Assembly (NCBI GenBank): GCA_030248295.1
Contig: JASANH010001508.1
Span: forward strand, 620,001 to 684,000
Length of the DNA stretch: 64,000 nucleotides
Direction: 5' to 3'
DNA from: Mesodorylaimus sp. YZB2_4
Lineage: Eukaryota > Nematoda > Enoplea > Dorylaimida > Dorylaimidae
A program made the position numbers and the translations under genes. Below the pieces are notes generated by a model. It worked only from the letters and a program-made list of their open reading frames with translations. It did not search any database and was not told the origin of the DNA. Shown in pieces: positions 1 to 44,400 of this stretch (the first letter of the stretch is position 1; each line of letters opens with the position of its first letter).

Positions 1-229
1 TATGAGAAGGGGGTGCACAGTGTCAGCTGCTTGCCCGCAGTCACGATTCCATATTCAACAAGTGATGATCCAGCATTTGACAATCTAAAACTTGGAAACT
101 GGACGGGTATTTTGTTTAGTAATTTCAAGTTTAGGTGTTATCTGTTCAGTGCTTTTTTCAGCTTCGTTCGATGGTCTATACTTCTCTGGACAACAGCGGT
201 TCGCCTGGACATCATGCTGCTCCCAGTGA
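1..229 (+). CDS. 3' end of an upstream mucin/discoidin-family paralog (copy 0, partial)
   Basis: Two exons, 1-106 and 162-229, joined across a 55-base intron with GT and a good polypyrimidine-CAG acceptor. They encode the extreme C-terminus of a protein paralogous to the complete gene at 7910-16147. Exon 1 carries the VTIPY and DDPAF...LKLG.WTG motifs that recur at 15960-16026. Exon 2 carries FDGL...RFAW.SCC followed by TGA and matches the last exon of the complete copy (16083-16147). The function of this tail is unknown; its cysteines suggest a disulphide-bonded extracellular segment. The rest of the gene lies outside the window to the left. It shows that at least three copies stood in tandem. 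Confidence 0.6.
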
Positions 230-946
230 TAATCTTTTCAGTGTTGTTACTGGCATGCAAAAATTGTTTGGTTCACCGTTTCAAACTGAATGCTGTGAAA
301 AACGTGATAAATTGATGGTTTTTCATGCGCATTGTCGAATATCTGAATATTTGAAGAAGCAGACGACCTTGTTTGATTGGTCATAATATTTAGCTTATCA
401 CACAATACGAAACTGAGTTAACATTGTGCAGAATCGCCTGGCAAGCCTGCTAGTGCCATCTAGAAGTTGCTGCGGGAATACTGTAGGTTCCAGGTGCAAC
501 AGGAGCCTTTATGCCAGGAGAGACGAGGGAATTCCAAGTGCGTCAAGGAGTACTCATATCCTTATCACCGTTTCCAATCACATATTGTTCCAGGCCGTAC
601 TAACCTTCCCGACAGCCTACAATTTTACGGATGTCATTATTGATGTTCTTTCACCACGGGGCTCTCTCCCAAAATACATGCGTTTATGTAATGCAAGCAT
701 CACATTGATTGGCTCAGTGACACTCGCAGGTATCCCCGTTTCTGTCTCCAGTTTCAACCAAGTCCTAAGATCGTCCGACGCCAGTGCTACGGTAAAGGAC
801 ATGACGGTAGGTTGCACCCTGCTCTTCTTCCTACAGCGGGCTCTTTGCCACAGTTCGACGAAGTAGTATACAGCTCAACCCTCGCTGGAACGTACACGCC
901 GGCAGCAAAAGCAAGCGTCACAATCGATTTCTCTTTGAGCCACATA

Positions 947-1064
947 CAGTAGTGGACAAAAGTAAGGCACGTTCCTGACTTCTTTACTTATGGCAGCAGC
1001 TACTCTCTAGGGGACAATCTTGTGGCGTTTCCCGCAAAATATATGAATAGAGCACAAAAGACTG
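947..1064 (+). repeat. Left terminal inverted repeat of the Tc1 element
   Basis: 118 bases that match, inverted, the right end at 2502-2619 with scattered substitutions. The inner copy of the transposase-binding-like motif is at about 1150-1170. Confidence 0.9.
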
Positions 1065-1288
1065 AGTAGGTAACACAAGTAAATTTTAGACCAGGTAGCA
1101 CAAATCAGTGGTGGGTGGCAAAACTTTAAAAAATTGCGAAATATTGCTGGGACAAAAGTGAGGCACGTTTTTTGGCAGGAGAAAACGCTCGATACACGCG
1201 AGCTACAAAGTGACGGGAAACGGTCAGGTGGCTCGTCTGCGTCATCTAGAAACATAAAATTCAAGTTTGTGCCATCGGTTTACCAAAA

Positions 1289-2299
1289 ATGCCCACTGGT
1301 CATAATTTTTCAAACGATGCTAAGGCTGCAATGGTTAAAATGAGGGTCGAGGAGAAGAAATCATTTTCGGAGATTGAAAAGACGTTTGGAAGATGCGGTC
1401 AAGTCATTTCAAAGATCGGGAAACGCTGTTCGGCCCGGTGGACAACAAGTCCGTTGAAAAAGCCTGGAAGACCAAGGAAAACCACGACCCATGAGGATCA
1501 TCTGATTAATTAAAAGAACGTCGATTTCGAGCCCCTGACTGACCGCTGGTCAAGTGGAGTTGGCCACTGGCTTAACGGTCAGCAGCAAGACAATTAGTCG
1601 TCGCCTGAGGGAGGTTGGCTTGTCAGCTCGACGTCCATGCAAGAAACCATTGATCTTATTGAAGAATCGGGGGGGGGGGGGGCGCGAATCAAATTCGCCA
1701 AAATGCACCTGAACTGGACCAACCAGCAAGGGCAAAAAGTTCTTTGGAGCGATGAATCGAAGTTTGATTTGATCAACTGCGGTGAGATCAAGTACGTGAG
1801 ACGCCCAGTTGGCAAAAGGTTCGATCTTAGATACACTATTCCAACGATTAAGCACGGTAGGGGGACTGTTAAGGTTTTGGGCTGTTTCTCTGGACGAAAG
1901 ATGGGCCCGACTCATAAGATGAATGGCATCATGGACAAGCACGTGTACATGGACATCATGGAGAATGCCATGCTTCCTCACGCCCGTCGCTTCATGCCCA
2001 AAGGCTGGATCTTTCAGCAGGACAACGATCCGAAGCACTCCTCGGCTCATGCACAGCTATGGTTTCAGCGCAAGAAGGTCAATGTAATGCAATGGCCAGC
2101 TCAATCCCAGGATCTAAATCCGATTGAAAACTGGTGGGATGAGGTCGAAAAACGTATTCGAGTGACCACCTACCAGAATTGCAACCAGCTGTTCGATGCC
2201 ATTCAAAAAGCGTGGGCCGAAATTCCTCAGTTAGTCATTGATAAACTGATCGCCTCCATGAGGAGCAGATGCGGGCAGGTGAACAAAAATTTCGGGTAA
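1289..2299 (+). pseudogene. Tc1-like transposase remnant (DD34E), frameshifted
   Basis: The first part (1289-1513) encodes a helix-turn-helix-like N-terminus ending in a GRPRKTT AT-hook-type motif and then a stop. The centre (about 1560-1668) is open only in a different frame (RRLREVGLSARRP). The catalytic half resumes in a third position after a 14-G run at 1669-1682, with FAKMHLNW, DESKF, QQDNDPKH and NPIENWW. The spacing between the second Asp and the Glu is 34 residues, the DD34E signature of Tc1-type transposases, which catalyse cut-and-paste transposition. The N-terminal stop and the poly-G shift make this copy inactive as it stands. Part of the poly-G length could be sequencing error. 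Confidence 0.88.
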
Positions 2300-2501
2300 G
2301 CTACCAAATACTGAAGGTTTAGAGTCTCGATGTCCTGTCATGAAGTTTAGAGCGTTTTTCGAAGCGGAAAATAGGGCTGTTCAGTTATTCAAAGAAAACG
2401 TGCCTTACTTCTGTCCCAGCAATTTTGCTGAATTTTTTGAAATATTTTGGGGTGCTTGACTACTTTTGCTGTCAGATAAGCTATTGAAGAAGGAACATAC
2501 C

Positions 2502-2619
2502 CAGTTTTTTGTGCTCTATCTATGTATGTTGTAAGAAACGCCATAAGGCTGTCCCCTAGTGAGTAGCTCCTGCCATAAGTGAAAAAGTCAGAAACGTACC
2601 TTACTTTTGTCCACTACTG
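2502..2619 (-). repeat. Right terminal inverted repeat of the Tc1 element
   Basis: Inverted partner of 947-1064, ending in CCACTACTG next to the TA duplication. The inner motif copy lies at about 2400-2420. Confidence 0.9.
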
Positions 2620-5600
2620 TAGGTTCAATTTACGCAGCACCAAGTGGAAGTGACAAGATATCGACGCGCCTGATTCGACCTTTTCAAGGGATAAGATTAG
2701 TTCTTTTCAGGTGAAGGCGCAAGCGACATTCTCAACTGGATGGAAAGCAACGACACAACTGTCCATCATATTTGGTCCGACAACAAACCCCGTCCAGGTA
2801 AGTTACTCGTAAATGGCGCCTTAGAAGGTCACAAGGAAATTGAAGCAATATTCGCGTCTGATCAACTAATTCTAGTTTCTTTTCCTTCACGAAGACAGGT
2901 TACTATGGGACGCTAAAGTCCCCAACCAACGCAACTGGCGTCGGTCAAATAGTGGATGTGACTACTGACCCTGAACTCGGACGCCATCACGATCGATCTA
3001 AACGTTATCGTGTTTCCCGACTGCGCTAGCGTGCAGTACAAGCTGTCTTTGATCGAGATAACGATTACCAGCGCCCAACCATCCAGGGGGTGCGCGCTTT
3101 CGAAGGAAGTAGCCACCACGCAATGCCCAATTTTCGGTTCACCTGCACCTGACTGCAACAGCGGTTACAGTAAGGGTACAATCAGTTTTGGAGGACTGGC
3201 AAATAGCAGTGAGTATCGGTAAGAATGATGGAGAAGGGCAGCTCACCCATCCCTTCTTGCAGATGGAGGGAATGGAAACAGCCATGATGAACCAATACAA
3301 CTAAACGCGAAACTATACGTCGAGAGCGTCGATAAAACATACGGCCTTTATCAAAACGCGACTATTTCTGTTCAGATCCCTGTCGTAGCCCCTGTAAACG
3401 TGCCTACTTCATTAAATATCAACAGAACTATTCCTTTAATCGTGAGTAGACTACATAGGTGTTCTAATCCTCGTCTCACAAAAAACCTGACTGGATACAT
3501 TTTTAGGGTATCCTAAACACCAAAACAACTTCATCTACAACTGCGACCACTTTGACATCGACTGGTATTTTATCATCTACTAAAGCCTTATTAAGACCCA
3601 CGTCCTTACTGAGTACAGAAAAAACGTCAACGTCAACGCCAACGACTAAGACCCCCGCTCCCAAAAACACGAATGCATTCGCCACCACCTCCATCTTCAC
3701 CACATCGACTACTAGTTTGACGCCTAGCACACTTTCAGCAACTGCACCTGCCATCAGTCCCACTACAACAGCTTCTACGGCCACCCAAACAACCTCAAAA
3801 ACATCTACTGCTCCGCCATTTTCAACTGCATGCACCAAGTCGTCGACGAGTCACACCATATCGATCTCTTAGGCTTCAACCGCCTCTACGATTACAACGC
3901 CCACAATGCAAACCAAAGCTCCATCCACCAGAATCTCCTCTTTTGGTACCACTGCTACTACTTCTAATTCGGGAAGTAAATCGACAGCGCTTGTCACAGC
4001 TACCACAAACAAAAGCATGCAGACATCGACGACCGTCACTGAACTATTGGCCATCAGTTCGACATCTCCAAAGACTTTTGGGACAAATACAGCAGAACCA
4101 TCAACTGTATCGACTCCTGGGTTGAATAGTATGCCCACGGCCACCTACCCTCCTGCTACTTCTATAATCCCTGGCACTTGTAAGTTTGGTGTTTCTGGTA
4201 ATGACTGCCAAGTAATGACAGAACATCACTTTATGGCATCACCAACTCCTATCCAGTCCGCTGCCACGCGGGTTTCGACAGCGGCACCAATAACGACAGC
4301 AGCCCTGGCGTCGGCACAAACGACAGTTTATTCGTACTCGAACGTGCCGCCGGCTTTCTCCACTGAGGCTTCCATCGTGACACAGCAGCCAAGAACTCCA
4401 GTAGCCACTGAATCAAAAGCGACGACAGCGCCATCTACATCTTTCTTATCACTCACAACTACCTATCAGTTTCCAACATCAGCACATCAGCCCGCCAATA
4501 CAACCTTGATTCAAACAACCAGTTATGTAGCATTGACCCAAGCGGGTTCTGGGCCTGTGACCTCTACAAACGGGTTGGTGGAGACGACAGCTCCTTCCTC
4601 AACTAGAATTGCGTCTACAGTCTCCTCAGAGTCCACTGCTTTGCCAACTACAGTTGATTTATTGGCCAGCTCAGTCACTTATACAAGATCCACCGTTCCT
4701 AATCCTACTGAGCAAAGCCATGTCACTCAAGAGTTGACAACAATGGCAGCGGATAGGATCCCGTTAGAAGTAACCACACCCTAGACATATACGCCTCCAC
4801 CTTCAGGCAATGCAACCACGACAATCATACCCATTGTGGATACCGCTTCGTCAGATACATCAACTCTAACATCTAGTATTACCTTGTCAGTTACTTCTTT
4901 TGGCGCTCCAAACTCTATCTATGCAACCAGCTAAGATGCCCTCGACCAGTATCCCCTCTAGCTCAGTGGTGGCAAGCACTGACACCGCATACACACACAT
5001 TGGAGACCCAGATACTGCAACATTGTTTGGAGGCCAAACAGAAGCGATATCAACTGAGCTTCCCTGGCCTAGTGTCAATTAAGCAGTCAGTTAGCCAAGT
5101 CCCAGTGTATATGTGCACAGATTCCTCATTGTTGACTGACATCAACATGGAAGAGCCCACCCCAGGACACTCCGCCACTGCTAGATCCGAAATGTTCCAG
5201 GTCCAGCAACATGGTTAGCACCCAGACTGCCAGTATCTATTTTTCACTTGATGCCCCACCAACTACCGCCAGTGTCGCCCTTGCAGGTGCGTCTGGAAAG
5301 AAGCAGTACCCAGGACTTCTGGCTCTCGGACCTCTAATCGTAAGATTATCACCATAACAAGATTAGATGCAAGGGGCCTTTTTGAAGACAGGTATTCAGA
5401 GACGACGGCTTCAATTTCCTCCAATGTCATGAAAGAAGATCCTATGCCGACTCAGCCCGTTGTGACCACACCTGAGTCAATCGCTTCCCCGAGCGTAGCA
5501 TCAACTAAATTCTACCAGGACTATAATGCCACTGGTTTCTCTTTTGAATGGACTGGACCCACTCCGACAGGCTCCCAATCTACAGCAGGCGTATACAGGC

Positions 5601-7265
5601 CTTCCCCCGTCTCGCCTCATCGTCAGCTGCTTCAATTTCTTGGTGTCACCAAAGTCCCACTGCAAACACAACAAATTCACCCACTTTCGCCAAACCCAGC
5701 CAGACCCAACTGACGCAAAACCTGTAGCAACCGAGGCTTCATGGCTTACTAGACCATTTAACGCGTTCGTAGAAGGCACGTCTACGGCAAGAATAAAATC
5801 CCGTTCGTTAAAAAGCACCGAGTCAACAGGTAGTGCAAGCCACCAAACGCCTGTGCCAAACCCAGCCACGCACGCGACGAAAGATTTTGTTGGAGGCATT
5901 CGTCAATCTGGACGCAGAACTGTATCCGCTGCTAGATTAACAACACTGCCAATGATCTCAGCAATCATTGATGGTTACACAGACGCATCAGAAGCTCAGG
6001 CATCTTCTTCCTTCACTTCTGAAACCTTGCCATTCACAAACAGCGCAGCCGATAATGATGTTGCCGAAGGCACCGCATTTAGACTTCGGGCATCATCATC
6101 GTCAGAAACAAGTGAAGTGACAGCGGGTGCGCTAGGCATGAAAATTGTACCACCTACTTCAGTTTTCAGACGACAGGAAAAACAAACGCGGTGTCACGAC
6201 CTAGCGCGTTAGGGTCATATTGAAACACTGAACCTTCACCAAGCTTTGTCGTCAAGTGTTTCTCTCCAACCAAGCATCACACCCGCCTCGGGTAACTACT
6301 CTTGAAAGCTCCAAAGTATCCATGAGCCTGAAGCAACATCCATGGCAGCAGACATTCAAAGCTATCACATCAAACGCTCGTAATTATTCCTCATACGCAT
6401 CACTCACCACAAAACAAATAAAATTACAATCTCATAGGAGAGTCTATAGAACTTCTCTAAGCGCAATACTCTCAAGTACAGCTGCTATGACCGGAATGCA
6501 AACGCATCTGATAAAATTGAGCCCAACGCAAGGCTATTCGTGTCATCATTAGCACCAATTTATCCATCACTTTCTATGCCATTACTGAAAAAGAAGCCTT
6601 CTAACGGTGGAACAGTCAACAATCACGAAAAACAGACTACCAAATCACCTGCGGCAAATACAGGTGAGCTTTCGCTAGTCAAGTATCGCTGGACAGGGTT
6701 TAAAATTTCAGGAATTCAAACGTTTTTCACTACAAAGACTACCAATACAGAGGCAGTGGCTCCCAATGGGAATTACGTCAGGGCTCGCCTTTCAGATGCA
6801 GCTACAAGTAAAGTATTATCGAAAATTAAGCTCCTTCTACAGCAATTTACCATTTCTGAATACATTGCTTCACTAGCGCGTGCACACTGCCTTGGTTTCA
6901 GTGACACCGTGGACGTGAGCATCCAGATTTCATACCCTGCTGACAGCTCGAGTGATGCAGAGCGACTGGATCTTGTTTTGCTGCTCCCACCTCACCTGTC
7001 CTTGATTGGCTTACTCCAATCAAATTCAACTTATTCTGATAATCTGACGGCCAATATAATTGACGACAAACGCAAATTGACAAAAATACGCATTCCTAGA
7101 ATGAGTCCTGGCGAGGTGGCAACTCTGGATCTTCAGTGCTCAGTCGAGCAGATGCCAAATAACACAAACAAGTACGACGATGGCACCCCGTTTCGAACAG
7201 CCATCCTCATGCAGACAATAAGCAATGTGAGTTCAGACGAGCCAAGTCGGGCCCCAAACGGGTGA

Positions 7266-7909
7266 CGAGACTTTTAATCTACAAGTATTTATTGGCGCAG
7301 AGACGAGCTTTTTGTAATTTTGCCTTGTCATTGAATACTGTCTTTTTATGCCATAACAGCCAGACAGAACTGGGCAATCAGGCCATGACAACGGGAATGA
7401 AACGCATAAAACCATTTGAATATTGAGTAAGAATGAATATTGGGTGCTAATATTTCGAAAAATCTTCCAATTGCGTGCTCCTGTAATACCTATTTCATGC
7501 ACGACATACTCCTTGCAAGTGTAAAGTGTGGAGCATCATCTGGAAATTATCATCTCTCAACGGAGCTTCACGACGGATGCCATTGAGCTTATAATTTACT
7601 TTCACAACGAGTGAGCATTGTGCTGTCATCCAAGATCGCTAGGAGCTTGGTCGCTGAACCTTGATGAACCCTGAACTTTGTGAAGCATCAGCTATGATTT
7701 TTTTGAGAGCATACGCAGAACAATCACGCAGAGCGCTCGAAAAGTTGAACCGAATCGGGTGCTTAATAAAACAGAAATAATAAAACATCTGGTGATTGAA
7801 TAACTTGGCAACTCAGATCCTTGAAATACTCACCCACCCAGCCGTTCACCCACTGGTACCTGTGACCTGGTCAAGTCGAATGCAAATTGCTCGGAGTCTG
7901 ACAGCAGCG
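7266..7909. other. Spacer between mucin copies A and B
   Basis: About 640 bases without a recognisable coding segment. The discoidin and cysteine-tail exons expected at the end of copy A are absent here, so the deletion or rearrangement that truncated copy A lies at or before this spacer. The promoter of copy B must lie here, but I see no clear TATA box. Confidence 0.5.
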
Positions 7910-10900
7910 ATGACTCCGCTAGCGGGTCTGCGACATGCTGCTGTAGCTTTTGGTGAGTGGGAAAAACTCAGTGATTATAATCATGCACGCCTTACTTTCC
8001 AGCAGGTTTAGTCTGCTTCTTTTCGCTGGCTGCGGCACAGAAACCGTCGCTTTCGATAGTGCAGACATCTTCTTCAACAGGAAACTTCTTGCCCGGCGAG
8101 ACAAGAACATTCCAAGTGAGTGTTACAAAGCACGCTACAAGAAACCACACTACTGTAGATTCACATTATTTTAGGCGGTAGTAAATTTCCCAAGCTCCTA
8201 CAACTTCGCTACCCTGTCCATCAATATATTATCTCCGCGCACTCTTCTCCCAAAATATATGCGTCTGTGTAATCCAAGTATCTCATATACTGGCTCGGTG
8301 ACAGTAAACAGCATGCCCGTTCCTTACTCCAGCTTCGTTTCGACCTTGAAGTCATCCGACGGAAGTGTTACGGTAAGACTGAAATCCATTGGATTCTGAG
8401 AATAACGATCCGCTACCTCGAATTTGTTCTCTTTTTACTACAGTATGACGAAGTGTCATTTAGTACATCCATTCCTGGAACATACAACGCAGCAGCAAGC
8501 TCAATAATCGCTGTTGATTTCTCTCTGAGTCATGTCGGTTCAATCTACTCCGCACCGAGCGGAGCTGACGATGTTTGACATTTTCCTTGCTCAATAATGG
8601 ATAGCACGCTGGAATCTTATGTTTTTAGATAGCCATGAACGTGATATTCTCAACGGGGTTCAAGCCAAAATCCACATTTTCTCTCACATTCGCCCCTACA
8701 ACAAACCCCAACAAGGTATGCATGATGTCGGTTAAACTCTGTTATCGTCGCTAAACCAGTTTATTCATGCCAGACGGATTTGTCTGGTACGCTAGGGTCT
8801 ACCATCAACCCAACTCCCGTCGGTCAATTTGTGGATGTAGCCATCACGCTAACTTTGGACGCCATCACGTTAGATCTCCGGCCACTCTTGATTGCTGATT
8901 GCATAGGCGCAAAGTACAAACTGTCTTTGATCGAGATCACCCTTATCAGTGCTGCCCCATCCTGGGGATGCGCGCTATCGAGCGAAGTGGTGAACACACG
9001 GTTTCCCACTCTCACTTCGCCGCCACCTGACTGCATGGTTGGCTACAGCTCGGGCACAATCGCCTTTGGAGCACTAGCGAACATTAGTAAGTAGAGGCAA
9101 TAGCAATTGTAGTAGGTGTGGAGAAGGCAGTGTATCTGGTTGCCTTAAGCGGCCGCCTTATACACGGAGCAGTGTATTGACTTGCCTTCGTTGGCCATTC
9201 CATACGCTCCTCCAGGCGAGGCTGAATCCCGTCGGGTTGATGTCTCAGGCACCTACGACTAGGTGACTGCCTAGAGGGTCTTAGAGTGCATCCGCTCCCC
9301 GCGGGATCTTCTCCCATGTAGGGCTATTCCGCCTATTACATTTGGCGTCACGAACATAACAAAGCCTGGTAGGCGTAGGAGGGAGGCGGCCGACCGCAAA
9401 GAGCGGGCAAGTCTTGCGACTATACCTACGGCTGAAACACCAACCCAAGAGGTTGACGTCTCCCAGCCAGGGGAGAGTATCGATTACCCTCTCCCACTCG
9501 CCATGGCCTACCAGGCACGAGGGTTACACAATGCAAGAGAAAGGTCTCACTCATGCTGCTTCAGATGGTGGAAATGGGAACAATATGGACGAAACAATAC
9601 AACTAAACGCGAAGCTATATGTTGAAAGCGTTGATGCAACATACGGCCTGTATCAAAACGCGACGATTCAGCTTAAAGTCCCAGTCGTTCTGCCTGGAAA
9701 CAAGAATGCAACTTTTTTAATCTCTAGAACAATTCCACTAGTCGTAAGTACAGTAAAGCACAGATGCTACAGCTTTTTGTAAACTTCAAGGGTCTCAATC
9801 TAATAGGGGGCTCTAAATATGACAACGACATCGCCCACTATCACATCAACATCGACGACTTCAACCTCGACATCATCTACTTCGAATAGTACATCCGCCG
9901 CAACGACCACTGCTCCTACAACCTCAAGCGCAACGTCAACAACGACCACCACCAAGCCAACTACCACGTTGACAACAATCACAGCATCAACGACGATGTC
10001 GACAACTTTACCTCCAATAAGGTCCACATCAATTAGCTCCACCACTACCTTACCAACGACTACTAAGCCAACCACAACCATACCTTCAGCGTCTACTTCA
10101 ACATTTACTACAAAACCCACGACTATCAGCACGACCTCCTCTGCGCCTACAACGCCAGCGACTATTTTATCCACAACCACGCCAGCCATGTATACCAGCA
10201 CCACCTCGACCACAGAGACTCCCACAACGACGACATCCTCTACGACTACAACGTCAATGGCCCAAAATACTTCAACAACTCCGACCACGACCCCCCACAC
10301 AGCCACTAGTACTGTTACAACCGCTACTAGCAGCAGCTCAACAGCACCAACGACCACCACGACTACCAGTAGCACCTCGACAGCACCGTCGACCACCACG
10401 ACTACGAGCAGCACCTCAACGGTACCAACAACCACCACGACTACCAGCAGCACATCAACGGTACCAACAACCACCAGTACAATGACGCCCACCACGACGA
10501 CCACGTCTACGACTACAACTACAACACCAGCGCCAACGACCCAAAGTACTTCAACAAAACCAACCATGACAACTCCTGTAACCACTACTATTGTTACTAC
10601 CAATACCAGCAGCACCTCAATGGTACGAACGGCCACCTCGACTACCAGCAGTACGTCAACGGTATCAGCAACCACAAGCACAAATATCCAGACATCGACA
10701 TCTAAAACTACGCCACCCCTAATCAGTATCGCATCAACATCGCATCCTCCAATGACAAGTTCGGCCGGAGCTTCAAGTGCGACCCCAACCCGTGGTCCAA
10801 CAACATTTCCTATGACCACGTTGCATCCAACGACCACAGTTCTTTCTGCGATCACAAGTAAGTGCTGCACTGATTTATTTGTGATTAATCAGCTATTGCA

Positions 10901-13900
10901 GTCTATATCTTTAAGCAGCGCCAACAGTTGCAACCAGCCTGGCTGCAACATTGCCCGCACCGATTACTTCAGATCGAACGACCCTTGCTCCCTCGGTTAT
11001 CACTAGTTCTTCGACTCTGGGACAACAATATACGACTCCTGAGATCTCCACCGTGCATGTTCCTTCGTCACCTGCAGCACCATCTACTGCGTTCAGGCAG
11101 CTCACTACCACCATGCCATTACTATCTACACCCACCTCTCCCACAAACACGGCTGCTGTGAAGGCGTTTACTTCCGTGGTACCCGCAACCCCTTCCAGAG
11201 TCTCCTCACGTCTCACATCCCTGCTTGGCTCGCCGTCGGCAGCCCCTATCACAGTCGCAGTGCATCCTACAACCCTGTCAAGTTTTTCCTCTACTAGTCA
11301 TAGTCACTTCAGTGCAACTCCAGTGACCATACCTACATCTATGTCACAAACAACAGTGGCGGTTGCTGCGACGACCGTAAAAGGCTTGAAAACTAGTTCC
11401 AAACAAGCGACCACAACGCTATCGCCACCAGCATCCATGAAACTAACTTCTGCTGGCACAATTCTTCCAAGTGCAACGAGTTCCTTACCACCAACGATCA
11501 ATAAGTCCACCCAGGGGTTCAGTTTGCCAGGATCAACTCTGCTACCAAGCCAACCTCCAACAACCTCAATGAGGCAGCAGCCGATTACTGTATTAACTCG
11601 ACCGCCTCCTCCTGCACCATCCACCGTAAATGTTTCAACTCTCTCCAGTGTCATTCATTCTTCGACCGTGACACAGGCATCCGTCGTAGCGACCTCACCT
11701 ATTCCTGATACCACAGCAGGGAAGACAGCGATAACCCTGAAGACTATAAGCTCGTCAGGTCTGCTCAGCCCAACGACCATACAAATCATGCCGAATAAGG
11801 TAACAACTGAACTGATTTCAACTGTTTTGATTGGTCAAGCGAGCAGTACTCAAAGGGTATTAATGACCAAACCTTCATCTCATGTTGCTTCTTCTCCTAC
11901 GAGCACTGCTGCACAGACAGAACCAGCCCCAACAGAGTCAACTGATCCGACCACCACATTCGCCCATCTGGAACCCGATGTAACAGCACAAGCAAGAACC
12001 ACAGCAGACAGGCAACAAAGCACTCAAATTAGCACCGACCCTCATTCCTTAGAGTTTTCCCAATCATTGAAGGAAACCCGTTTCACAGCGGTGCCAGCAA
12101 GTGCAGCTACTTTGCCCTATTCCACAGACAGGGATGCGAGTCCCGTCGAAATTGGAGCCACTGAAACATTCGCATCAACTGCATCCGTTGAAGTGGTGTC
12201 ACGCTACTCAACATCAGCAAGAGACTCAACACTAGTGGCCAAGTCCTCAGCACTTGCTGTCTTTTCTACAGGAACAACGCCGGACACCACACCCTCGGGA
12301 GTTTTGGGGCTAACAGATGCGCAGTCATCTGTTACATCCATGGCTGAATATCCAGCTTCGGAGGCGACAGCAACGGATCCAGTCACACCCAGCTCCACCA
12401 TTGAGATGTCAACATCCTTTGAATATAAGACAAATCAGGCAACAACAGAATCCCTTGCTGAATCATTGCCACACGCAGTAAGCCAAGTACCGACGGAAAC
12501 GAGCACAGGTTCACGTCTGCTGATTTACACAGAAGTCTCGGCTGCTAGTGCCGATCTGCTTGACACAAATAGAGCCACAAGCCAGAATAGCAGTACTGAT
12601 GCTGCAGCAGATAACATGTCGATATCTGATAGCTCTGTTATCCTAACTTCTTCTGGAATAAAGGAAAAACCATCAACTCACCCTTCTAACCCACTGTCTC
12701 CTGATCCAAGTACCTTCCTGAGCACAGACAAACCTGATTTTATTTCCGTTGTAACAATCTCGTCGCCCCTAGATAATCTGATTCCAAGTTCAACCGCCTT
12801 TCTTTTGGCTGAAACTACGGGAACTCACACTCCAGCCATCGACTGGTCCCTTGACCTAAATGTTGCAGTTTCTTCTGATGCGCAGTCTGAACTGCCACCA
12901 ACAACGACGGACGCAGAGTACCTCTCCGACATGCCCTCTGACCTATCGTCAAGGCGAGAAACAGATGCTCCTCTGCAAACGGTTCAGGCTCTAGCCTCGG
13001 GTCCACCACAGCAGGATACTTTGGGAGCATCGTTGTCAACTATTTCTATAGACACCTTCGGTCAAGGCACTGGTAAACCCAGGTTCAAAACAAAATCAAC
13101 CAGCCTACCACCAAACGTCTTTCCTTCGACACCAATCATCGATTCCTCAGTATCCATCCAAGACTTATCAGCAGCAACAAATGCGCAGACTGACAGCGAG
13201 CCAGAAGACGCAGCAGAACGAAAACGAACGACAGCATCCACTGCTGCAGACAAGCTACCAGTAACCTTTGGTTATGCGGAAGGCACTGGAAAATTAAGGC
13301 TAAAAACCGTATCAAGAGCTGCGATATCTACAGGCTCGGCAGTCACGAAGTTAGTTACCTCAGGTAAGTTGGCAGAAAGCACATTTAGAGCTCCAGCTTC
13401 GCCGATAGGAGGCAAAACAGCAGGTATGAGCCTGAGTTCTAGAAATTCCACTTCAACTGCAGCCTTTCAACCTTTAGACCCGACGAAAACCTTTCCACAA
13501 GGTAGCACGGTAAATGCCCAAGGTATTCGAAACTACGGCACCTCAGCATATTCTCAGCTGGAAAGCGCTTTTAAACAATCAAGCGCCACACCCATTTTAA
13601 GACATCAGTCCACAAAGGAAGTATCTCAACCGTCATCAATCAATACCGCGTCCACCACGAGGATAACATCTACCGCCGTAACAAGCAAACCACCATCAGA
13701 AGGAAGATTAAATGTTACTTTCTCTCTTTGCAGAAAATGCAGAAAAGCTCCTCTTGTCTTACAGGGTCACCCAAGCAATCATCAACTAACCAGATCATCT
13801 CGCAGAAGTCAAGATTTCCAGCGGTAAAGACGACTTCATATCCTAGCTGGTTACTCGACAATGCCACTGCTCTACTTGCATCAAAGTCAACCCCACTGGT

Positions 13901-16147
13901 ACCTACACCCACTGGCGTGATGCCAAAAGAAACAAACAGCCAATCTATCAACCCGAATGAGTCTAGCTACGGGTACAGCAGCGGTGCAGTGACGTCCAAA
14001 TCCGGTAAAAAAATCAGTTATACTGTACATATATCAACGAAGAAAAAAGGCCTGTTGTAGGTAGCTTAGTGCAATCGCTTTCCAAGACGACAATAACAAA
14101 GCCAAAGACTGTGAATCCTCCAGAAATCAAGGCCACTTTGAAACGCGCGGATACTAGCACAGTATTCTTTATGAAGTAAGCTGCTCAAAGACAAAATCAT
14201 AAAGATCATCGTCCTCTATGCGAAGGCGTGAAAGGTGTGTTTGCCAGTGACACACCTTACAGAGCCGCCAGCCAAGGAAGTTGTGTATTTGGTTGCTTTA
14301 TACAGCGTATCAGATACCTTCTTTAGCGGCTCGATATAGAGGGGGTGCGAGGGGCGAGGACCCCTACTTGCCTGGACGGTTGTTGAGGCCATCATCTCCC
14401 TGTCGTACTCTCTGTAATGTAGGGCTGTCCAGCCTATCACATAGGGGCTGTAAGATAAATTTGTGATTTATTTGTTTCAGTGACACCGTGGACGCGAGCA
14501 TTTACATTTCATATCCTGCTGACAGCTCGAGTGATGCAGAGCCATTAGATCTCGTTCTCTTCCTCCCACCTCACCTGTCCTTGATTGGCTTACTCCAATC
14601 AAATTCAACTTATTCTGATAATCTGACGGCCAATATAATTGACGACAAACCCAAATTGACAAAAATACGCATTCCTAGAATGAGTCCCGGTGAGGTGGCA
14701 ACTCTGGATCTTCAGTTCTCAGTCGAGCAGATGCCAAATAACACAAACAAGTACGACGATGGCACCCCGTTTCGAACAGCCATCCTCATGCAGACAATAA
14801 GCAATGTGAGTTCAGACGAGCCAAGTCAGGCCCCCAAACGGGTTCAAGGGAAGTTGACTCATGTATCACTGATCACTTCAGAATCGAGTAAGCGCCTGCT
14901 AAAGACCGAAGCAAGAACAAAAACCCACACCCCATTCGTAGGTTGCCAACAAGCGGCGCTAATCGAAATAACTTCAGCATGCGGTTTGGTTGCATCATCA
15001 GTTGCAATGGGAACAAACGTATCGAATATAAACTTGGACGGGCACTCGTGTAAGAGATTAACACACTCACACTGGCATATTCAGTATTGACCTCTTTCAG
15101 ACTGGAGTCCCGAAATTCGACCGGACGAAGATCCTTGGATCGCCGTCGCCTTTCCGAAACTGGCGCAGGCACGCACTTTAATTATATCCTCAAATTCGAG
15201 CAAATTTCGACGCCCGAGCAGTGTTCGGTTGGAGTACAGTAACGAAGGGCGGAGGTGGTTTGTTCTGCAGGTAGCTGGTAGAACTGGGCGGCCAGCAATA
15301 ATGATCGTCTACAGTCCTTGTATTGTTGCTCGCAGGTCTTCAGATTGGGAAATCTTTACGATAGCAACGACACTGCCAAAGTGGCCATCACGATGACCTT
15401 GCCCGCGTCTTATTATCGTCTCGTGATCGAACAAGCTGACAACGAGTCACTGCGAGACCAGATGCACATTGGCGTGCGAATGGAACTGCTCGGGTGCATT
15501 GTGGACAGCGCAGTCGATACCAAGCATGCGTGTGCACTGGAGACTCCTTCAGTGTCGAGGGATAGGCAGTTTATCGCCTCTCCAACAGAACCGGACGTTT
15601 ACTATTGCACGTATGATCAAAAAAGGTAGACCTCTAAAGCTAAGCTGTTCGCTGTTTGAAAAGATCAATTCTACAGGGATAGGCGGCAGTGTTACAGCAG
15701 TTTGGACGGGGACACGTGGAACAGTAAGGAAATGGCAATTAACTAACCTGTCTGCTTCTTCCCTCTCCCGTCTTCCACTCTAGTTCTGCCCAGCCAAATC
15801 GGTTTCATCACTTGTGTCGAGAAGTCAACGGGTGTGGCTTATGGCCAGTCTCAGTCCGGTCAGAAATATTCTGCTTCGTCTGACGGGGGCAAGTCTTGGT
15901 ATCCGATTTTGTCGACCGACTACGAGAGCAGTGTGCACAACCGCAGCTGCGTGTCCCCAGTCACCATTCCCTATGTAGCCAAGGACGACCCTGCATTCAG
16001 CAATCTGAAACTGGGAAAGTGGACAGGTAACTGTGTGTTTCATGGCTATTGTAGAAACATGGTCCATGCTGTTTTGTTGTAGTCTCACCCGATGGTCTGT
16101 CCTTGCCCAGACAACTTCGATTTGCTTGGAGTTCGTGCTGTTCATAA
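7910..16147 (+). CDS. Secreted mucin-like protein with three repeat modules and a discoidin domain (copy B, complete)
   Basis: Sixteen exons join in phase: 7910-7952, 8003-8115, 8175-8372, 8444-8572, 8629-8715, 8774-9086, 9565-9743, 9807-10857, 10919-13677, 13734-14056, 14481-15049, 15101-15270, 15336-15625, 15677-15723, 15784-16026, 16083-16147; about 2192 residues. Exon 1-2 gives a signal peptide (AVAFAGLVCFFSLAAAQ). Residues 40-355 hold two beta-rich modules with paired cysteines (RLCNPS, ADC...GC...PDC). Residues 358-1735 are Ser/Thr/Pro-rich, an O-glycosylation substrate. A third module (about 1733-1840) follows, then an F5/8 type C (discoidin) domain (about 1885-2032; YWSPE, DPWIAVAF, VRLEYSNEG.RW, MELLGC). 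The last 160 residues have repeated aromatic-SS.DG..W motifs and end SSCCS. Discoidin domains bind glycans, phospholipids or collagen, so a surface-coat, cuticle or egg-envelope role is an inference. Weakest junction: the donor after 8572 (GTTTGA). Confidence 0.72.
9117..9360 (+). mobile_element. Partial LTR retrotransposon end (LTR plus primer-binding-like site) in intron 6 of copy B
   Basis: The stretch 9117-9341 starts TGTGGAG and ends CTATTACA (TG...CA). It is followed by TTTGGCGTCACGAACATAAC, which resembles an LTR/primer-binding-site junction. The complementary string GGTTCGTGACGCCA recurs on the other strand at 31030-31044. No gag or pol coding remains. It could instead be another terminal repeat type; the match is by pattern only. 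Confidence 0.4.
9367..9535 (+). repeat. SINE-2 body fragment (family R2)
   Basis: Shares GGTAGGCGTAGGAGGGAG, CGGCTGAAAC and the ending CTCGCCATGGCCTACCAGGC with copies at 18245-18541 (inverted) and 27020-27195. The tRNA-like head is missing in this copy. It lies in an intron of the mucin gene. Confidence 0.65.
14281..14445 (+). repeat. LTR-like fragment in an intron of copy B
   Basis: Starts TGTGTATTTGGTTG and ends TAGGGCTGTCCAGCCTATCACA. Both ends resemble the ends of the 9117-9341 element (GTGTATCTGGTTG; TAGGGCTATTCCGCCTATTACA), which suggests a related solo LTR. It lies in the intron 14057-14480. Confidence 0.4.
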
Positions 16148-18135: not shown

Positions 18136-18244
18136 AAATGCCACCCTACGCAAGGGGTTCATGTTCATGTTCATTTTTTACTACATCACCAAACGCTTAT
18201 GCGCACTCGAGGATGAAGGGACACATTTTTCACGAAATGATTGC

Positions 18245-18541
18245 AACCCTCATGCCTGGTAGGCCATGGCGAGTGGGAGAGAGTAATCGATACTCTCCCC
18301 TGGCTGGGAAACGTCAACCCCTCGGGTTGATGTTTCAGCCGTAGGTATATGTAGTCTCAAAACTTGCCTGCTCCAGTCGGAGTTTATGTCCCGCTGACTT
18401 CGGTCGACCACCTCCCTCCTGCGCCTACGCCTAGTGGCAACATGATTTACCGGCCCGCGAGTCGAACACTGGCCCGTAACTGCGCACCTGGCTTGAGAGA
18501 CAGACGCCTAACCCATTAGGCCACGAGGCCGGTGTGATGAC
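18245..18541 (-). repeat. tRNA-derived SINE with intact head (family R2)
   Basis: On the minus strand the unit begins at about 18535 with GGCCTCGTGGCCTAATGGG, a box-A-like start. It continues with an anticodon-arm-like GTCTGTCTCTCAAGCC and box B GTGTTCGACTC. The shared R2 body follows down to CTCGCCATGGCCTACCAGGC near 18255. This is the copy that links the R2 body to a tRNA-like promoter. Confidence 0.75.
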
Positions 18542-23661: not shown

Positions 23662-24754
23662 ATGATCATGCGCCAGAATCATCTTATTTGCCTGCTTCTT
23701 ACTTTATGCTGCGCTGCAGTCCGGACAATGGCTGCAGATACAAGATGTCCCGGCGGCTATGCCGAAGGCACCACCATTGATATCGGGACCTATTGGTAAG
23801 AGGCTAACGATATACCCAGACCAAAATAATGCTAGCCTAGTTTTTCTGTGCAGGTATGAATGCCAAGGAGGCCGCGTGATTCCCAAAGGATGCCTGACTG
23901 AAAACCATATGCGAATCGAGATCAAAGAAACCTACGACGTGGATTCGTATCGCATGCAATGCGTACTGGACTCGGCTGGCCAACTAACGTTGCACTACAA
24001 GGCCTGCGTTCTAAACGGCATGGAGCACGAGGTGGGTGCCGTTTGGGACGACGGCAGTAGCTGGTTCACGTGCACCCGTATCTCAAACTATCTTAAAATT
24101 GAAACAAGTGGCTGCGTGGACGGCGGTCGACGGGTCAGTCTGGACGAGAAAGTTACCAAGGACGATATTATCTTTCGTTGCAAGAAGAACAGTGCGGGTG
24201 TGCCAACCATGACACCGTGGGGATGTCTGGGCAAGGATGGCAAGCAATATGCCATTGGAGAAAAGTTCGATTTCGGCCAGACCGTCTATCAGTGCATGGT
24301 CAATGGTGAAAAGACGCAAGCTAAATGCATCGGGTGCTTGCACGAGCAACGCGAACTCAGCGCTATGGATCGTTTCGTCAAAGATGATGTCATCTATGAA
24401 TGCTCGGTCCAAGATGACGAGACTGCGTTCAAACCTTCCGGCTGCATTCAAAGGGACGAACGCGGGACCAAGATTGAACGAAGACTGGGCTGCTTCTGGG
24501 TCGAAGGACAGCCACCTTACCAGTACCAGATGACCTGCAAGCACGACGACAATGCACTCACTGCTGTAAAGACAGTGACCAAATGCGTGTACAAGGTGAC
24601 CCAGGGAACACTCGTGGTCGAACCTGGCTGCTATTCTATCATCGAGAAGACAGCCGTTGCGTGCATCTCTGACTCGTCGGGTATCAATCTTCGCACGTTC
24701 CAGGTGGACGACAATGGCAGTGTGAACGTGCCGGGTGGAGCGAGGAAGTGTTAG
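23662..24754 (+). CDS. Secreted cysteine-module protein resembling the nematode MIG-18 (fibronectin-I-like) family
   Basis: Two exons, 23662-23795 and 23854-24754, with a 58-base GT-AG intron splitting a Trp codon; 344 residues. The N-terminus (MIMRQNHLICLLLTLCCAAV) is a clear signal peptide. The mature protein is a string of about six modules of roughly 45-50 residues. Each has the pattern C-x-x-x-G...G...W/Y.C.......GC, for example GTYWYECQ...PKGC, GAVWDDGSSWFTC...TSGC and GEKFDFGQTVYQC...KCIGC. No membrane segment is present. The pattern fits the extracellular 'abnormal cell migration protein 18-like, fibronectin type I' modules known mainly from nematodes. Family assignment is from remembered pattern only. 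The ATG lies about 95 bases after a TATA box, and an ATTAAA lies 154 bases after the stop. A matrix role is an inference. Confidence 0.8.
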
Positions 24755-27019: not shown

Positions 27020-27195
27020 CGGTGTAACCAGTCCTGGTAGACGTAGAAGGGAGGGGCCAACCGAAGTCGGCGGGACGAAACTCCGACTGGAGCAGGCAAG
27101 TCTTATGGCTGAAACATCAATCCTCCCAGCCCGGGAGGGAGTATCAATTACTCTCCCATCATTCACTCGCCATGGCCTACCAGGCATGAGGGTTA
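27020..27195 (+). repeat. SINE-2 body fragment (family R2)
   Basis: Contains GGAGCAGGCAAGTCTTATGGCTGAAACATCAA and ends CTCGCCATGGCCTACCAGGCATGAGGGTTAC, as in 18245-18541, but has no tRNA-like head. Confidence 0.65.
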
Positions 27196-27397
27196 CAACG
27201 GTCGGGAGAGCGAGTGTGAGCGCACACGGTTTATATGCGGACCTCCGTTCCAAATGCTGTAGGGTGCATCGAAATCAGGAACCAGGGCGTTGGTAACCCC
27301 ACCTATACGTGACTACATCTCCACCTCGTCCATCTCGTGATTTTATCAGCTCCCACTCAAGAACCCAAAACTAACAAAGCCTAACATACCGAGTCAT

Positions 27398-31232: not shown

Positions 31233-31757
31233 CTACGAGTTGGATCCCTGCTGAACACTTTCTTTCGCCAAGCGCGCGTACTCGTTCTTGTCCCGTTGGA
31301 AGGTCTGCGTGGCTTGCGCATTCGACGGACGAATCGAGTTCGAGCTCGGCCAGCACCGTGTTCAAGGCTTGGATCACCTCGCGGACGCTGACACCGGCTC
31401 GCCAGCCTTCGGGGTTGATCTTCGAGAAGCACACTTTGCCCGTGTTCGGCTCCACGTTCGGGTGGTACACCTGGAATGCGAGCAGGCCAGAGTTTATGGG
31501 AGACCCTTGAACGAAATATGCACGCTTACCTTGGTTTCGAAAGTGAGGATGGGCGGCTGGAACGGGTATCGATCACCGAACACGAATCGCACCTTGAGTG
31601 TGCCGCCGTTGAACGGTCCTCGATCGGGAGCCAACGTCACGGCCCAGTCTCGTTCATTGTCACCCATTGTCTTCACTTCTCGCACCATCGGCGGCGGATC
31701 CTTAGTCAAGTTGGCCAGCTCTTTGCGGACACGATTCGGAGCTATTGGGGCGGCCAT
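31233..31757 (-). CDS. UBE2L-type ubiquitin-conjugating enzyme (E2), apparent one-base frameshift
   Basis: Exons 31757-31530 and 31470-31233, with a 59-base GT-AG intron. The UBC fold is clear: RVRKELANL start helix, YPFQPP, TFETK, YHPN (the HPN motif), catalytic Cys in GKVCF, W-R-A-G and VIQALNTVL. E2 enzymes carry ubiquitin as a thioester and hand it to E3 ligases. YPFxPP...FxTKxYHPN matches the UBE2L3/L6 type best, whose members work with HECT and RBR ligases. After ELDSSV (about 31326) the frame runs into an unrelated tail ending at 31126. Skipping one base gives NAQATQTFQRDKNEY..., a normal E2 C-terminal helix, and a stop at 31233, for 154 residues in total, the usual size of UBE2L3. A sequencing indel or a recent mutation could explain it; I cannot tell which. 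Confidence 0.8.
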
Positions 31758-32884
31758 GCTCGACGACGACGATCGAGATGAGGAGAGTTGCAAGAGAGCT
31801 TCCGACCGACCACCTGACCCGACTGTTCCCAACACTCTTCTGACGATGAGGAGTCCAAGCCAGGTGCGCTGACTTTACACTGGCTCTTTACACTGGCTTA
31901 CGAAACACTGCGGGGGTCCAGCGTGCAATACAATCCAAGTGATCGCCTTTCCAGTCGCCTGCGATGTTGTGATCGTGTCGTGAATTGCTGACTGGACAAG
32001 CTGTATGCCGTCTGACAGAGACTCATACCAGCAGAATCACAGCTTTGAAATGGAGACAATTTCTAGAAGGATCAAAATGATGCGCAGAAACTTAATTTTA
32101 AAGTTTGAAGCTGGAAACCAGAAATTACGGGCTGGACTCAATCATGGGCAACCGAAAGTGCTACTCTTCAGCATAGCTGCTTACAAAGCAGTTAATATCA
32201 TAAAGTGCAGCCCTTGACAAGAAATGATAGGCACCCATGTAGACGGAAAGACATCAGCACCCACCAGTTAGTACCCCCCCCCCCCCCCGTTATGACCCAT
32301 CAGTTAGTACATCCGATTAAAAACGCTCTGAGATCACATCAAAGTGACTCCATCTGTGATTTGTTTCATTCTCAGGGGGAAGGGAATGGAGCCCTTCGGT
32401 TTTGGACTGAGCTCGGGATTAGCCCCGCCGCTCGCTGCCAAGCAACACGGTAGGCCAACGCCGAGCCGCTGCACCAATGCGGCCGCATGTCGCCCACACT
32501 ATTGTCCTTCGAAATTCTCCCACACAATCGATAATGCATGCATCGCGAAAGCCTTAGATACCGCCTATACATGCATGCATGTTGACATCTTGGTCACCCG
32601 GCGCAAAAGTTTGGTGATTACGCCAAGATAGCTAGCATCGAAAAGTTCTGGTTTCCCATCTTGGCTTTTAATGCAAATCAGCACAAAGGTTTCAAGGTTT
32701 GGGCTGCAATGACGTGCAATCGACCTGAGCATGCTTTCGACTGACAGCTGCGATGAGACTTGCCAGTTGTCAGCTAGAAAATTCCAGAGGGCTGGTCAGA
32801 TTTCCGCTGTCTCCTCCTCACAATCAGCGTCGTGCACTTGCTCCTTTCCGTTCAGACAATAAAAGTACGGCTACAGCCCCAAGT

Positions 32885-33743: not shown

Positions 33744-35504
33744 CTAATCCTTGGTACCGCTGCCCATAACTGGCAACGAGGAGGATGGCGGTGGACTCGT
33801 AATTGCAGTCAATTGCTCAAGCTGCCGAGGTAAACTCTGACACGCACCAGCATCCGTGTCACCACCCTCTCCAAACCCGGTTTCAGCGAAGGCGGCCAGC
33901 TGCTGCTGGTCGTAACTGGTCAATAAGGCTGAATCTACCGGCTCCAGACACGATGGACAGTTGAACGATCGCATCAGCCACTCGTCGATACAGTCCACAT
34001 GATACGTATGCATACATGGAAGAAACCGAACGCGATCGCCTTCCACAAAATCAGCCATACAGATGATGCACCTAAAAAGGAAGATCTCGAGTAGGAAAAC
34101 AGGCTCGAAAAATGGCCGCTACTTATGCTTACTCTGTATCACTCTTGTTTCCTTCAACGAAAATATCGATAGGCAAATGCTGAATTAGACCGATTCGTTG
34201 GGCTATTTTAATTTGTTCTTCTTCAGTCAGCTCGGATGCTTGACGGGATACCCCTGGTGACGGATGATAAATCGGAACCGGCGTGGTGCTAGCATCCGTG
34301 ACTGTGGCTGCTGAACGTTGCATGGTGGCAACCTAGAGCGGGAGAAAGAGTGATTAAGAGCAGATGAAGCCTAGACTAAGCCCAAATGGACATTGTGCAC
34401 CAAATACCATGGCAGCAGGTTCCAGGCTAAGCTGGAATAACCTGGGGTAATATACCGTACATGGCACCCAGTAACTTACTACCCTATATAGTGCCTACTT
34501 CAGTGAGCCCTTTGCAATTTTCTGAGTCAGACAGGCCCCCTAACCAAACTTATCGAGTGAAGTCCTTGGTTCCGACATAGGGAAACAGGGCTTGCCACAG
34601 GAAGGCTCAAACCATAGCGTGAAGTGTCCAAATGCGGAACACCTATGCCCCAAGTCCTTGTATCGTCACAAGAGGATGCTGGTTTTTCTATGCTAGCTGA
34701 CACTAAATCCCTGGGCGGCGAAAAAATCTACATTTTGCTTGAACCGTAGCTCAGGCTTAGAGCGACCGTATTTGTAAACCTACGAGTCGATTCCGCTTTA
34801 GGCTCATTTCGGGTCTGATTAGGAACACGCACAAGATTTAGTGGGATCTTACGATTAGTGGGTTTAGTGGAAAATTTTCACAGTCCTGAATCAAAACTGT
34901 ATCACTGATGTTTGTTGAATGACGACGACTTTTTTGCAAAATTTGAGCTAATTTTCTATTGTGATTATGTGACACTGTTACTGCGCTAACCGAAAACGTC
35001 TTGTCCAAAACAGTGAGACATCGGATTAGACGGTAAAATCAAGGTCTCCCAGATTAGTTCTAAGCCCCCCAGAAAAGGTACTGCTCTGTAGTGTAGCACT
35101 CACGAGGACGAGGAGACAGGGAATTCGAAGATCCGCTGGACATCACACGGAGTTGTAGGTAGTCCCTTTCATTATCAGACAAAGTTCTATGACTATACTG
35201 TAAGCCATATCTTACAGTACAGTACCTCGTAAGGGGGTGGTAGAACAATTCGTTGATGAAGCGCACCATCACTAGAACGCCGTTGCCGAGTTTCCCCGTC
35301 ACCTTGGCTATTCCGTTGTCGCCGGGATGACCTTGAAGGCCTGGCACCGATGTTAGTCTCGCTGTTTCGACTTCGGCTGCGATGCGATTCGTGTCCTGTT
35401 CCAGACGAAGCCGCCGATGACCGACCGACCACACTAACAGATTCGTTGTCACTATGCAGTAGATCTACATCGTCCGTCTCTGATGCTTGAAGGCAGTTTC
35501 CCAT
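33744..35504 (-). CDS. RNF11: RING finger protein 11 (RNF11) ortholog
   Basis: Three exons, 35504-35226, 34332-34133 and 34071-33744, in phase; 268 residues. It starts MGNCL, an N-myristoylation and palmitoylation signal as in RNF11. A Ser/Arg-rich linker of about 75 residues follows, then the PPPYE PY motif (about 89-93) that binds WW domains of NEDD4-type ligases. Next is LTEEEQIKIAQRIGLIQHLP, nearly invariant in RNF11, and then the RING-H2 domain (CIIC...CMHTYHVDCIDEWL...CPSC, about 160-202). RNF11 acts on endosomes as an adaptor for HECT ligases and in TNF and TGF-beta signalling control. The protein is longer than the 154-residue human form, because of the Ser/Arg linker and a 65-residue Gln/Ser/Pro-containing tail after the RING. 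It is transcribed away from the SMYD gene at 36032. Confidence 0.93.
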
Positions 35505-41422: not shown

Positions 41423-44400
41423 CTAGACGTACCACTCCTTGACATCTTTCTTCTTGCCCGTCCTGGAAAATCCGTTCACTTGTGTCACTCGAGTGCTTAT
41501 GAAACTTCTACTTTGAGCCATTTCTGGCGCCTGAGCAGTCTGGTCAGGCCCGGCCCCACCACCCGATGTGGCTATGAGATTAGTATACTGCTTCGTCTCG
41601 TCCACTGTCGAGTATGACTCGCCGCTGGAAGATTTGTGTCGACACTTAAATACCAAGAAGACAACCAGGATCAACATGAGTATCAGCCCGATGGCCACGC
41701 ATGAAATCACAACCGTTTTCGGAAAGCTACTTTTCTCCTCTTCGGCTTGCGCTTTGGGTGGAGGGGCCTGAGTGATGAGCGGTGGGGCCTCGACAGTGGG
41801 CCGAGGAGGCTGGGGGATGATCCCGTGCGAAATGGCTGGTTTGTTAGGTTTAGTAAGAGGCACTGCGGGTGCCCCAGTCACTAAAACGGGTGCGGGTGTG
41901 CGAGCTGGAGGCGAAGGCCGTAGTCTCGGCGTGGTCATCGGCCGATGAGGTCTCGAGGTGGACATATGAGGGGGCAACAGGATCTCCACCGAGTCGTCCT
42001 CCATCTCATCATAGTCGCATTCGCCATTGGGTCCACGACGACATGGGATAGTTTCGGCATCGGTTGGCGAGGCAGGCGTGGATCTCCTGTTGCTCTCAAC
42101 AGGTCTGACGCTTTTAGCTGAAGTTGATGACGCAGACGACTTTCTTGTGCTGGCACTCGATGGTATGGTCTTTGGCACTGGTGTCACGACTGGCGCTGCT
42201 CTCGTAAACACCGGCGAAATCAGGTCTGAAAAGGAAGCCCCGAAACTTAGTAATCATTAGAGACAGACCTAGGTCGAGCAGACACTTTTACCTGTCGGAC
42301 TGGGTGGCTCAATCGTGCAGCCATCGTCATTCGAGCCATCACCAGCACATCTTCCCGAGCCGCCTTCTTCATCGACGTCACCCGACATGAGCAAGTCATC
42401 TGGCGATGGTGACGGTTCGACCGAGCTCTGGGAGAGAAAGCATATTTATCGATAATATCCTATGCGAATTAGGGCATTACTTACCGACATCATCATTCGA
42501 TCCCTTAACACATCGCGTTCATGTTGGACGTAGTTGGGAGGGACATTCCAGGTGGTCAGGGCGTCATGATCTTTCCTGCCGTTGCTGGCTGGTCTCTGAC
42601 TTAGCTGGCTGGCGTACATGACCACGTCGCCATCGATTGTGATACGCGGATCGCGAGTAGCTGCCAATTCCAATGGCATGAGCATGTTGAAGTACAGCCC
42701 GCTGATCACTCCTTGAAACGGCTTTTCCACCTTGCTCCTCAAACTTCGCCTCTTTCCGTGTCTCGATTTGATAGGCCCATAACCTGACGGCGAGCGATGA
42801 TGCTCGAAGTAGGTTGGATTGTGACGACCACCAATTTGCAATTGGTATTGGCTATTGAAAACCTCCAATTCAGGGGCTGCAACGAAAAGTAGATAGAACT
42901 GTGTACAGTGAGGCCACAAATGCTTACCTCTGTGATAAAACTTGGACTGCATTGGAAAAGAATCCAGTTGAAAAGTCGAGTTGGGCCCAGTTCGAGTGAA
43001 CCTTAGGATATGATATTGATCGTCGTTGATTTTGTGCGTCAAGTCTCCAACTCTGTGAGCTCCTGATCCAACATCGTAAACCACTGCTGCACAACCGTCG
43101 ACCTAAAGGACAACGTGAAAAAGCGTCAGCTCGGGTAAGCCAGTAAAGACACCCTGTTTCGAAGCGCAGGCCACCCACCATTTCAAGAAACAAGTAATCT
43201 TCCGACGTTTGACTATCGACTCGGAAAATGATCGCTTCCGTTGTCTGATTGGTCTTGAGGCCGACCACCAGCTTATCACTGCTCCTGCTCGAAACCTCAG
43301 TTCCACTGTACTCGAACTTGATGAGGCCAGGCCCAGGTCCAAACTTGTATGAAATACTTTCTGAAAACAGGAAGCGCATGACTAATTACTATAGTGGACC
43401 TCTACTCGGGCTGACCTTCATCACACTTCGGTCCACCGTAGGTGGTCAGCGAGCAATCACAACGAATAGTGTTCGGTTGCTGAATGCATATCCCACCATT
43501 GGCGCAACTGTCCGTTTGACATAATGCAGAGGGTTCTGAAAAACGAGACCTTTCATAGCCAGAAACAAGAAAATAAATGCGAACTTACCTTGGCATCCAT
43601 TTCTAGCATCTACACGCGTCACAGCGTCATTGAGCAAATGTTTACGAGCACCGTTAATTTCCAACGAAGCAATACACCCCTTGAAACCATGTCGGGCAGA
43701 AACAGCAGACAACATTCTCCGGTACGATGTGGAATCGGCACCACCGAAGAACAAATTCCCGTCGAGGTTCAGCTCGTGAGTTGGCCCATCGTTTCGCAGT
43801 GTGGCCGATGTGTTGTCCACAGTCAACGTATGGTTACGACCACTGGTCTTCAGCACTTGAACTGAGTGCCACTTGAAGTCGTTGAGGTTGCCCGTACGAT
43901 GCGGTTGAATGAACTGAAGCGAAGGGGCTGTTAGGCGTAGCAGGGATAAGACGGGGGCTTGTAATCTCATCATCAGGAGTAATCATGTTTAATCCCACGA
44001 TGTGTAGGAGGGTCTCACTCAGGACCAACATCGTCATACTACTGTAGTGCGTCAGCAGGGAAAATGCTAATTCGCGAGTGCATTTGGTGTCTGCCCAGAA
44101 CACTCTTTTTGACATTGACGTCAGTAACATAGAAGCAATTTGCAAGTACGGGTACGACAAGGACCCTGTTAGATATTATCCCGTTACCTGCTTTCATTGT
44201 GCTTATCACAGGTGTCAATACTGCAAACCCTACATTTTCTGCTCCAGCCGCTAATGAAGCCGAACGTCGTTCCTTGCTCGCAAGTGGCCGTCGTAGTTTT
44301 CTCCTCAATCGCACAAGCCTGCTATCATGGCCGCAAATGACCAAATAGTACAAGGCAGATAAGTAAAGACAGAAGTACAAATTTTGAGTGTTCATGATTG

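Follow-up and report, generated by a model that had tools for sequence, protein, structure and literature searches.

What kind of protein joins a long Ser/Thr-rich stretch to a single discoidin domain, and where would it act? This question is raised by a gene at positions 7910..16147 (forward strand) of the window, by which we mean the whole 64,000-nucleotide stretch analysed here, positions 620001-684000 of contig JASANH010001508.1 (C7 below) in the genome of the dorylaimid nematode Mesodorylaimus sp. YZB2_4. The gene is called copy C and has two tandem neighbours, copies A and B. We lean towards regarding copy C, judged from its sequence, as a nematode gene that is functional and encodes a large secreted glycoprotein, and with the same modest preference we take the product to be a secreted matrix or surface mucin that would be docked by a C-terminal unit of discoidin domain and Asp-box tail.

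Splicing of copy C yields 18 exons with GT-AG introns, all in one frame, which encode 2194 residues followed by a stop. The first-pass annotation of this DNA had proposed 16 exons and about 2192 residues; its single joined frame holds, but its exon count has to be corrected. Two choices in the model have alternatives, namely an in-frame ATG at 7880 (open frame 7796-8011) upstream of the chosen start at 7910, and an in-frame acceptor 3 bases upstream of that used for exon 2. The predicted order of parts, from a signal-peptide-like start through two modules, a Ser/Thr stretch, a third module and a discoidin domain to a tail, is the one first proposed, and it is repeated in the intact copy A. The start (residues 1-25, exon 1 and the beginning of exon 2, 7910..8037, +, with an intron at 7953-8005) contains a hydrophobic 19-mer at residues 7-25 with a mean hydropathy of 1.72 in the hydropathy scan, from which secretion of the protein is predicted. 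No C-terminal anchor is obvious in the sequence and hydropathy of copies C and A. Apart from the start, hydropathy peaks in module 3 of copy A (1.77) and at the beginning of the discoidin domain of copy C (1.65), and both peaks fall within predicted or profile-matched folded parts.

Much of the confidence in this model comes from an intact tandem copy. Searching the genome (145,146,385 bases in 1067 contigs) at E <= 0.001 gave at least 10 matches for the C-terminal 454 residues and at least 14 for the N-terminal 360 residues, every one of them on C7 between 611,209 and 636,144, where they can be sorted into three copies in tandem. Copy A is intact (C7 610960-620229, 16 exons, 2252 residues) and has the same domain order as copy C. 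It starts upstream of the window, its 3' end as located by the genome search occupies window positions 1..229 (+), and it ends 7.7 kb upstream of copy C. All 15 introns of copy A have a counterpart of equal place and phase in copy C when exon ends are compared by eye, an agreement that is partly by construction, as the splice sites of copy A were picked with copy C as guide. The open frame is independent of this choice, with a run of 1156 residues in copy A compared to at most 277 in 300 shuffles. The distal mucin part lies on a single 3469-base exon in copy A, whereas in copy C it is interrupted by two additional introns, both 56 bases long.

The comparison with copy A also bears on whether the mucin and discoidin parts belong to two genes that were joined in error. 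A 305-base intron between exons 11 and 12 of copy C would allow such a division, but the junction between mucin exon and module 3 is in phase 2 in copy A too, and in A and C alike the frame runs on into the donor without a stop. Separate mucin and discoidin genes are therefore rejected, because copy A shares the junction and its phase, and we rate a false join as very improbable.

Copy B (496..7265, +, from genome and window matches) is a broken neighbour. Its pieces break off at 946 and restart at 2619, and between them lies a Tc1/mariner-type transposon (947..2618, +) with a DDE_3 match of 49.7 bits in 1598-2296. When any introns are read through, the best frame of the mucin stretch of copy B contains 18 stops and stays open for at most 303 residues, compared to 10 stops and a longest run of 1156 in copy A under equal reading. 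Copy B gave no match to the signal exon (residues 1-37), nor to the discoidin domain or the tail. Over 362 bases, the module-3 sequences of copies B and C share 95% identity, which suggests recent conversion or duplication.

The two intact copies differ in their divergence from part to part. At the residue level, A and C are most alike in module 3 (77% identity), followed by the exon-8 mucin (66%), the discoidin domain and the tail (64% each), the N-terminal modules (50%) and the exon-9 mucin (33%). The ratio of nonsynonymous to synonymous substitution rates (Ka/Ks) comes to 0.19 in the discoidin domain and 0.17 in the tail. Module 3 has a value of 0.34, exon 8 one of 0.28 and exon 9 one of 0.50, the last from an alignment at 33% identity; Ks is saturated for the N-terminal part. 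As read from these ratios, the discoidin domain and the tail are under purifying selection, with the lowest Ka/Ks among the larger measurable parts, and copies A and C are therefore both likely functional. Module 3 stands apart in having a Ks of only 0.44 versus 1.37 for the discoidin domain and 1.50 for the tail, and a base identity of 82% versus 55-75% in 11 other exons of the folded parts. Together with the match in copy B, the low Ks and high base identity suggest gene conversion of the module-3 exon.

The discoidin domain is the best-defined part of the C-terminal unit. It is encoded by exons 13-15 (14942..15497, +; residues 1888-2034), and the profile search upholds the F5/8 type C assignment of the first-pass annotation, with 31.6 bits for F5_F8_type_C (PF00754) in copy C, over the curated Pfam cut-off of 28.2. 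Copy A alone scores 26.9 bits, under this cut-off, and a two-copy profile of A and C matches neuropilin-2 at E 3.6e-4. The end cysteines of F5/8 type C domains usually pair, and cysteines bound the domain at each end in both copies (C1901/C2034 in copy C, C1959/C2091 in copy A). The discoidin domain is thus what copy C shares with neuropilin-2 and other F5/8 type C proteins; unlike these, it carries a long Ser/Thr stretch and an Asp-box tail, and no further Pfam domain passed the cut-off in its folded parts. A search for the discoidin family across the own genome at E <= 0.01 gave six matches among seven candidates on other contigs, two of them over the cut-off; this search misses exon-split domains and did not recover the three-exon domain of copy C.

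The tail that follows (15498..16144, +; residues 2035-2194) contains seven cysteines, all of which are kept in copy A. The aromatic-SS.DG..W repeats first described for it can be identified as Asp-box-type hairpins. According to the consensus for the regular and short forms in the available portion of PMC2716378, both copies carry one of each: the short Asp-box SLDGDTW at 15699..15719 (+; SLDGDAW in copy A) and the regular Asp-box SSDGGKSW at 15876..15899 (+; SDDGGRSW in copy A), with SFDGLYF as an additional site in copy A. The third site of copy C, SPDGLSL, does not fit. The Pfam BNR profile reached 11.5 bits in the tail of copy C, under its cut-off of 27, and had no match in that of copy A. 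A structure model of exon 17 shows a weak likeness to blades of sortilin and of the Asp-box (BNR) protein YCF48. Because the repeats are Asp-box-type hairpins, the tail might consist of a few propeller-like blades. Regular and short motifs are shared with Asp-box proteins such as sortilin Vps10p and the sialidases, but the tail here is only about 160 residues long, its BNR score is under the cut-off and no enzyme domain was matched.

Ahead of the discoidin domain, exon 12 (14481..14887, +) encodes module 3 (residues 1752-1887), predicted to be all-beta in an AlphaFold2 (AF2) model with a mean predicted local distance difference test score (pLDDT) of 60. Modules 1 and 2 near the N-terminus (exons 2-7, 8044..9743, +; residues 28-353) had no match in the Pfam scan of copy C. 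They had been described as two cysteine-paired modules, which is not supported, since module 1 holds the single cysteine C83 and internal pairing is impossible there; module 2 holds three (C232, C255 and C276). Nor did hhalign support the view of all three modules as repeats of one kind, as two-sequence profiles gave probabilities of at most 1.24% in three of three comparisons, a test of low power that leaves the kinship unproven rather than disproved. Intron 6 (9087..9564, +), which lies within this part of the gene, is enlarged by an interspersed repeat, as seen from matches within the window: 9401-9528 is 89% identical to 18242-18373 on the opposite strand, and 9460-9528 is 84% identical to 27123-27197.

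The Ser/Thr stretch between these folded parts had been proposed as a tract of about 1380 residues rich in Ser, Thr and Pro. Such a stretch is indeed present, but its density is not uniform, as only the first 350 residues are dense. These are encoded by exon 8 (9807..10857, +; residues 354-703), have 66% Ser+Thr and 9% Pro, and include a tandem repeat of a 39-base unit in 3.9 copies at 10324-10476. The looser distal tract spans exons 9-11 (10919..14175, +; residues 704-1751), with exon 9 alone being 2759 bases long, and Ser+Thr falls to 34% in residues 704-1623, where 13% of the residues are charged. Within 9807-13677, up to 921 residues can be read without a stop, whereas in 300 dinucleotide shuffles the longest such run averaged 156 residues and never exceeded 326. 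With its long Ser/Thr/Pro tract, made up in part of tandem repeats, copy C has the make-up of a mucin in the broad sense, and the stretch would be densely O-glycosylated. The Pfam scan of residues 1-360 and 1741-2194 matched no domains of gel-forming mucins (VWD, cystine-knot), and residues 361-1740, which lie outside that scan, contain one cysteine. Mi-MUC-1, described in the available part of PMC6638177 as a mucin-like protein on the nematode surface coat, is likewise Ser/Thr-rich, but Mi-muc-1 with 1125 bp is far shorter.

The layout invites comparison with the blood-clotting factors V and VIII. In the accessible text of PMC3695351, factor VIII has 2332 residues in the order A1-A2-B-A3-C1-C2, and its B domain lies in a single long exon (exon 14, 3106 bases) and is poorly conserved between human and mouse. 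Factors V and VIII share with copy C the succession of folded modules, a long spacer with a giant exon, a further folded module and discoidin, as far as the description of factor VIII in that source goes. One could hence imagine a cofactor or adaptor of this type, in which the glycosylated spacer is excised or acts in transport, the two folded ends are soluble and the C domain binds membranes. The two modules, the spacer with its 2759-base exon, the third module and the discoidin domain agree with this, as does the spacer being the least conserved part between copies A and C, like the factor VIII B domain in the excerpted account of PMC3695351. However, up to E 1 the Pfam scan matched no Cu-oxidase (the A domain) in the modules of copy C or copy A, only one discoidin stretch was found in the scan of copy C instead of two C domains, and the tail carries Asp-boxes. 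An R-x-K/R-R site is absent from copy A, and the only one in copy C, RDRR, lies in the tail and outside the spacer. We therefore regard the likeness to factor VIII as one of layout only, because neither A domains nor two C domains were found at the profile level, claim no homology of the modules, and consider a cofactor of this type quite unlikely. Lactadherin (MFG-E8), one isoform of which has a Thr/Pro-rich spacer ahead of its discoidin domains, is another partial parallel; copy C differs in the lack of an EGF match, in a spacer of about 1400 residues and in its extra modules.

This leads back to the reading as a docked mucin. Module 3, the discoidin domain and the Asp-box tail would form one docking head, whose ligand would be a glycan or lipid of a matrix or cell surface. 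The predicted O-glycosylated stretch would then hold the N-terminal modules outward from the docking surface and hydrate that surface, with the surface coat, eggshell or a mucus layer as possible settings. A discoidin mucin gene of this order is well founded, being repeated in copy A, whereas the part of the first-pass annotation that assigned it to a surface, cuticle or egg coat with docking through the C-terminus is at this stage a role that fits.

A protein released freely, whether as an excretory mucin or as a glandular or genital secretion, with a discoidin head that binds glycans on gametes or on another organism, would share the secreted layout and the lack of an obvious C-terminal anchor. 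Tandem duplication and fast mucin divergence are common in secretion genes, and both are seen in copies A and C. Furthermore, the nematode mucin-like protein on the juvenile surface coat is given a role in Pasteuria spore attachment in the portion of PMC6638177 available. Nevertheless, the discoidin domain and tail are conserved and not fast-evolving, and we regard free secretion as fairly unlikely.

Searches for relatives covered the C-terminal part of copy C. In a large protein database, no relative was found at E <= 0.01 with residues 1741-2194 as query (5422 candidates), nor with residues 1745-2194 as part of the full-length protein (6198 candidates). The search relies on shared exact 5-residue words. 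The neighbouring Fn1_2 gene (window 23666-24751, a 362-residue open frame with three Fn1_2 stretches) served as control: of 963 candidates, 42 were relatives at E <= 0.001, and in 40 of these 42 the longest contig was 1,014-1,513 bases. The database probably holds nematode transcripts, few of them long. Given such short contigs and the need for exact words, the lack of homologues is only moderately informative. In the open-licence literature, at the level of titles and abstract openings among the matches listed, this architecture was not found.

The surroundings are those of a nematode genome, with 133 cuticle-collagen N-terminal matches as a nematode signature alongside the Fn1_2 neighbour. 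The canonical spliced leader SL1 had no match in the genome with at most one mismatch in a search that skips very common words; its absence would fit an early-branching nematode lineage. Elsewhere in the window, on the minus strand, we noted exons of a ubiquitin-conjugating enzyme and a RING-finger protein close to each other (31497-31874 and 33747-34118), a papain-family cysteine protease (37910-38782, 234 bits), and a carbohydrate phosphorylase exon (61991-62386, 131 bits). Laminin G matches occur in five open frames at 42449-52445 (-), one of which has an EGF match too; these frames look neurexin-like. Arrays of 5S rRNA genes with a spacing of about 304 bases occur on contigs C32 and C295, with 47 matches in all among those listed.

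It is tempting, if doubtful, to think that a nematode lineage independently built a layout like that of factors V and VIII, with N-terminal modules, a mucin spacer that includes a giant exon, a beta module and a discoidin domain, the last joined to a new small Asp-box propeller with which it would make up a head docking to glycans or lipids. To our knowledge, the attachment of nematode mucins to cuticle, eggshell or mucus is poorly defined, and copy C, if the docked-mucin reading is right, would provide a defined molecular anchor for such a mucin. As intact paralogues whose heads are conserved while their mucin parts diverge freely, copies A and C offer a natural test. Moreover, the parallel in layout to factor VIII, with no shared A domains detected, could show which features recur independently.

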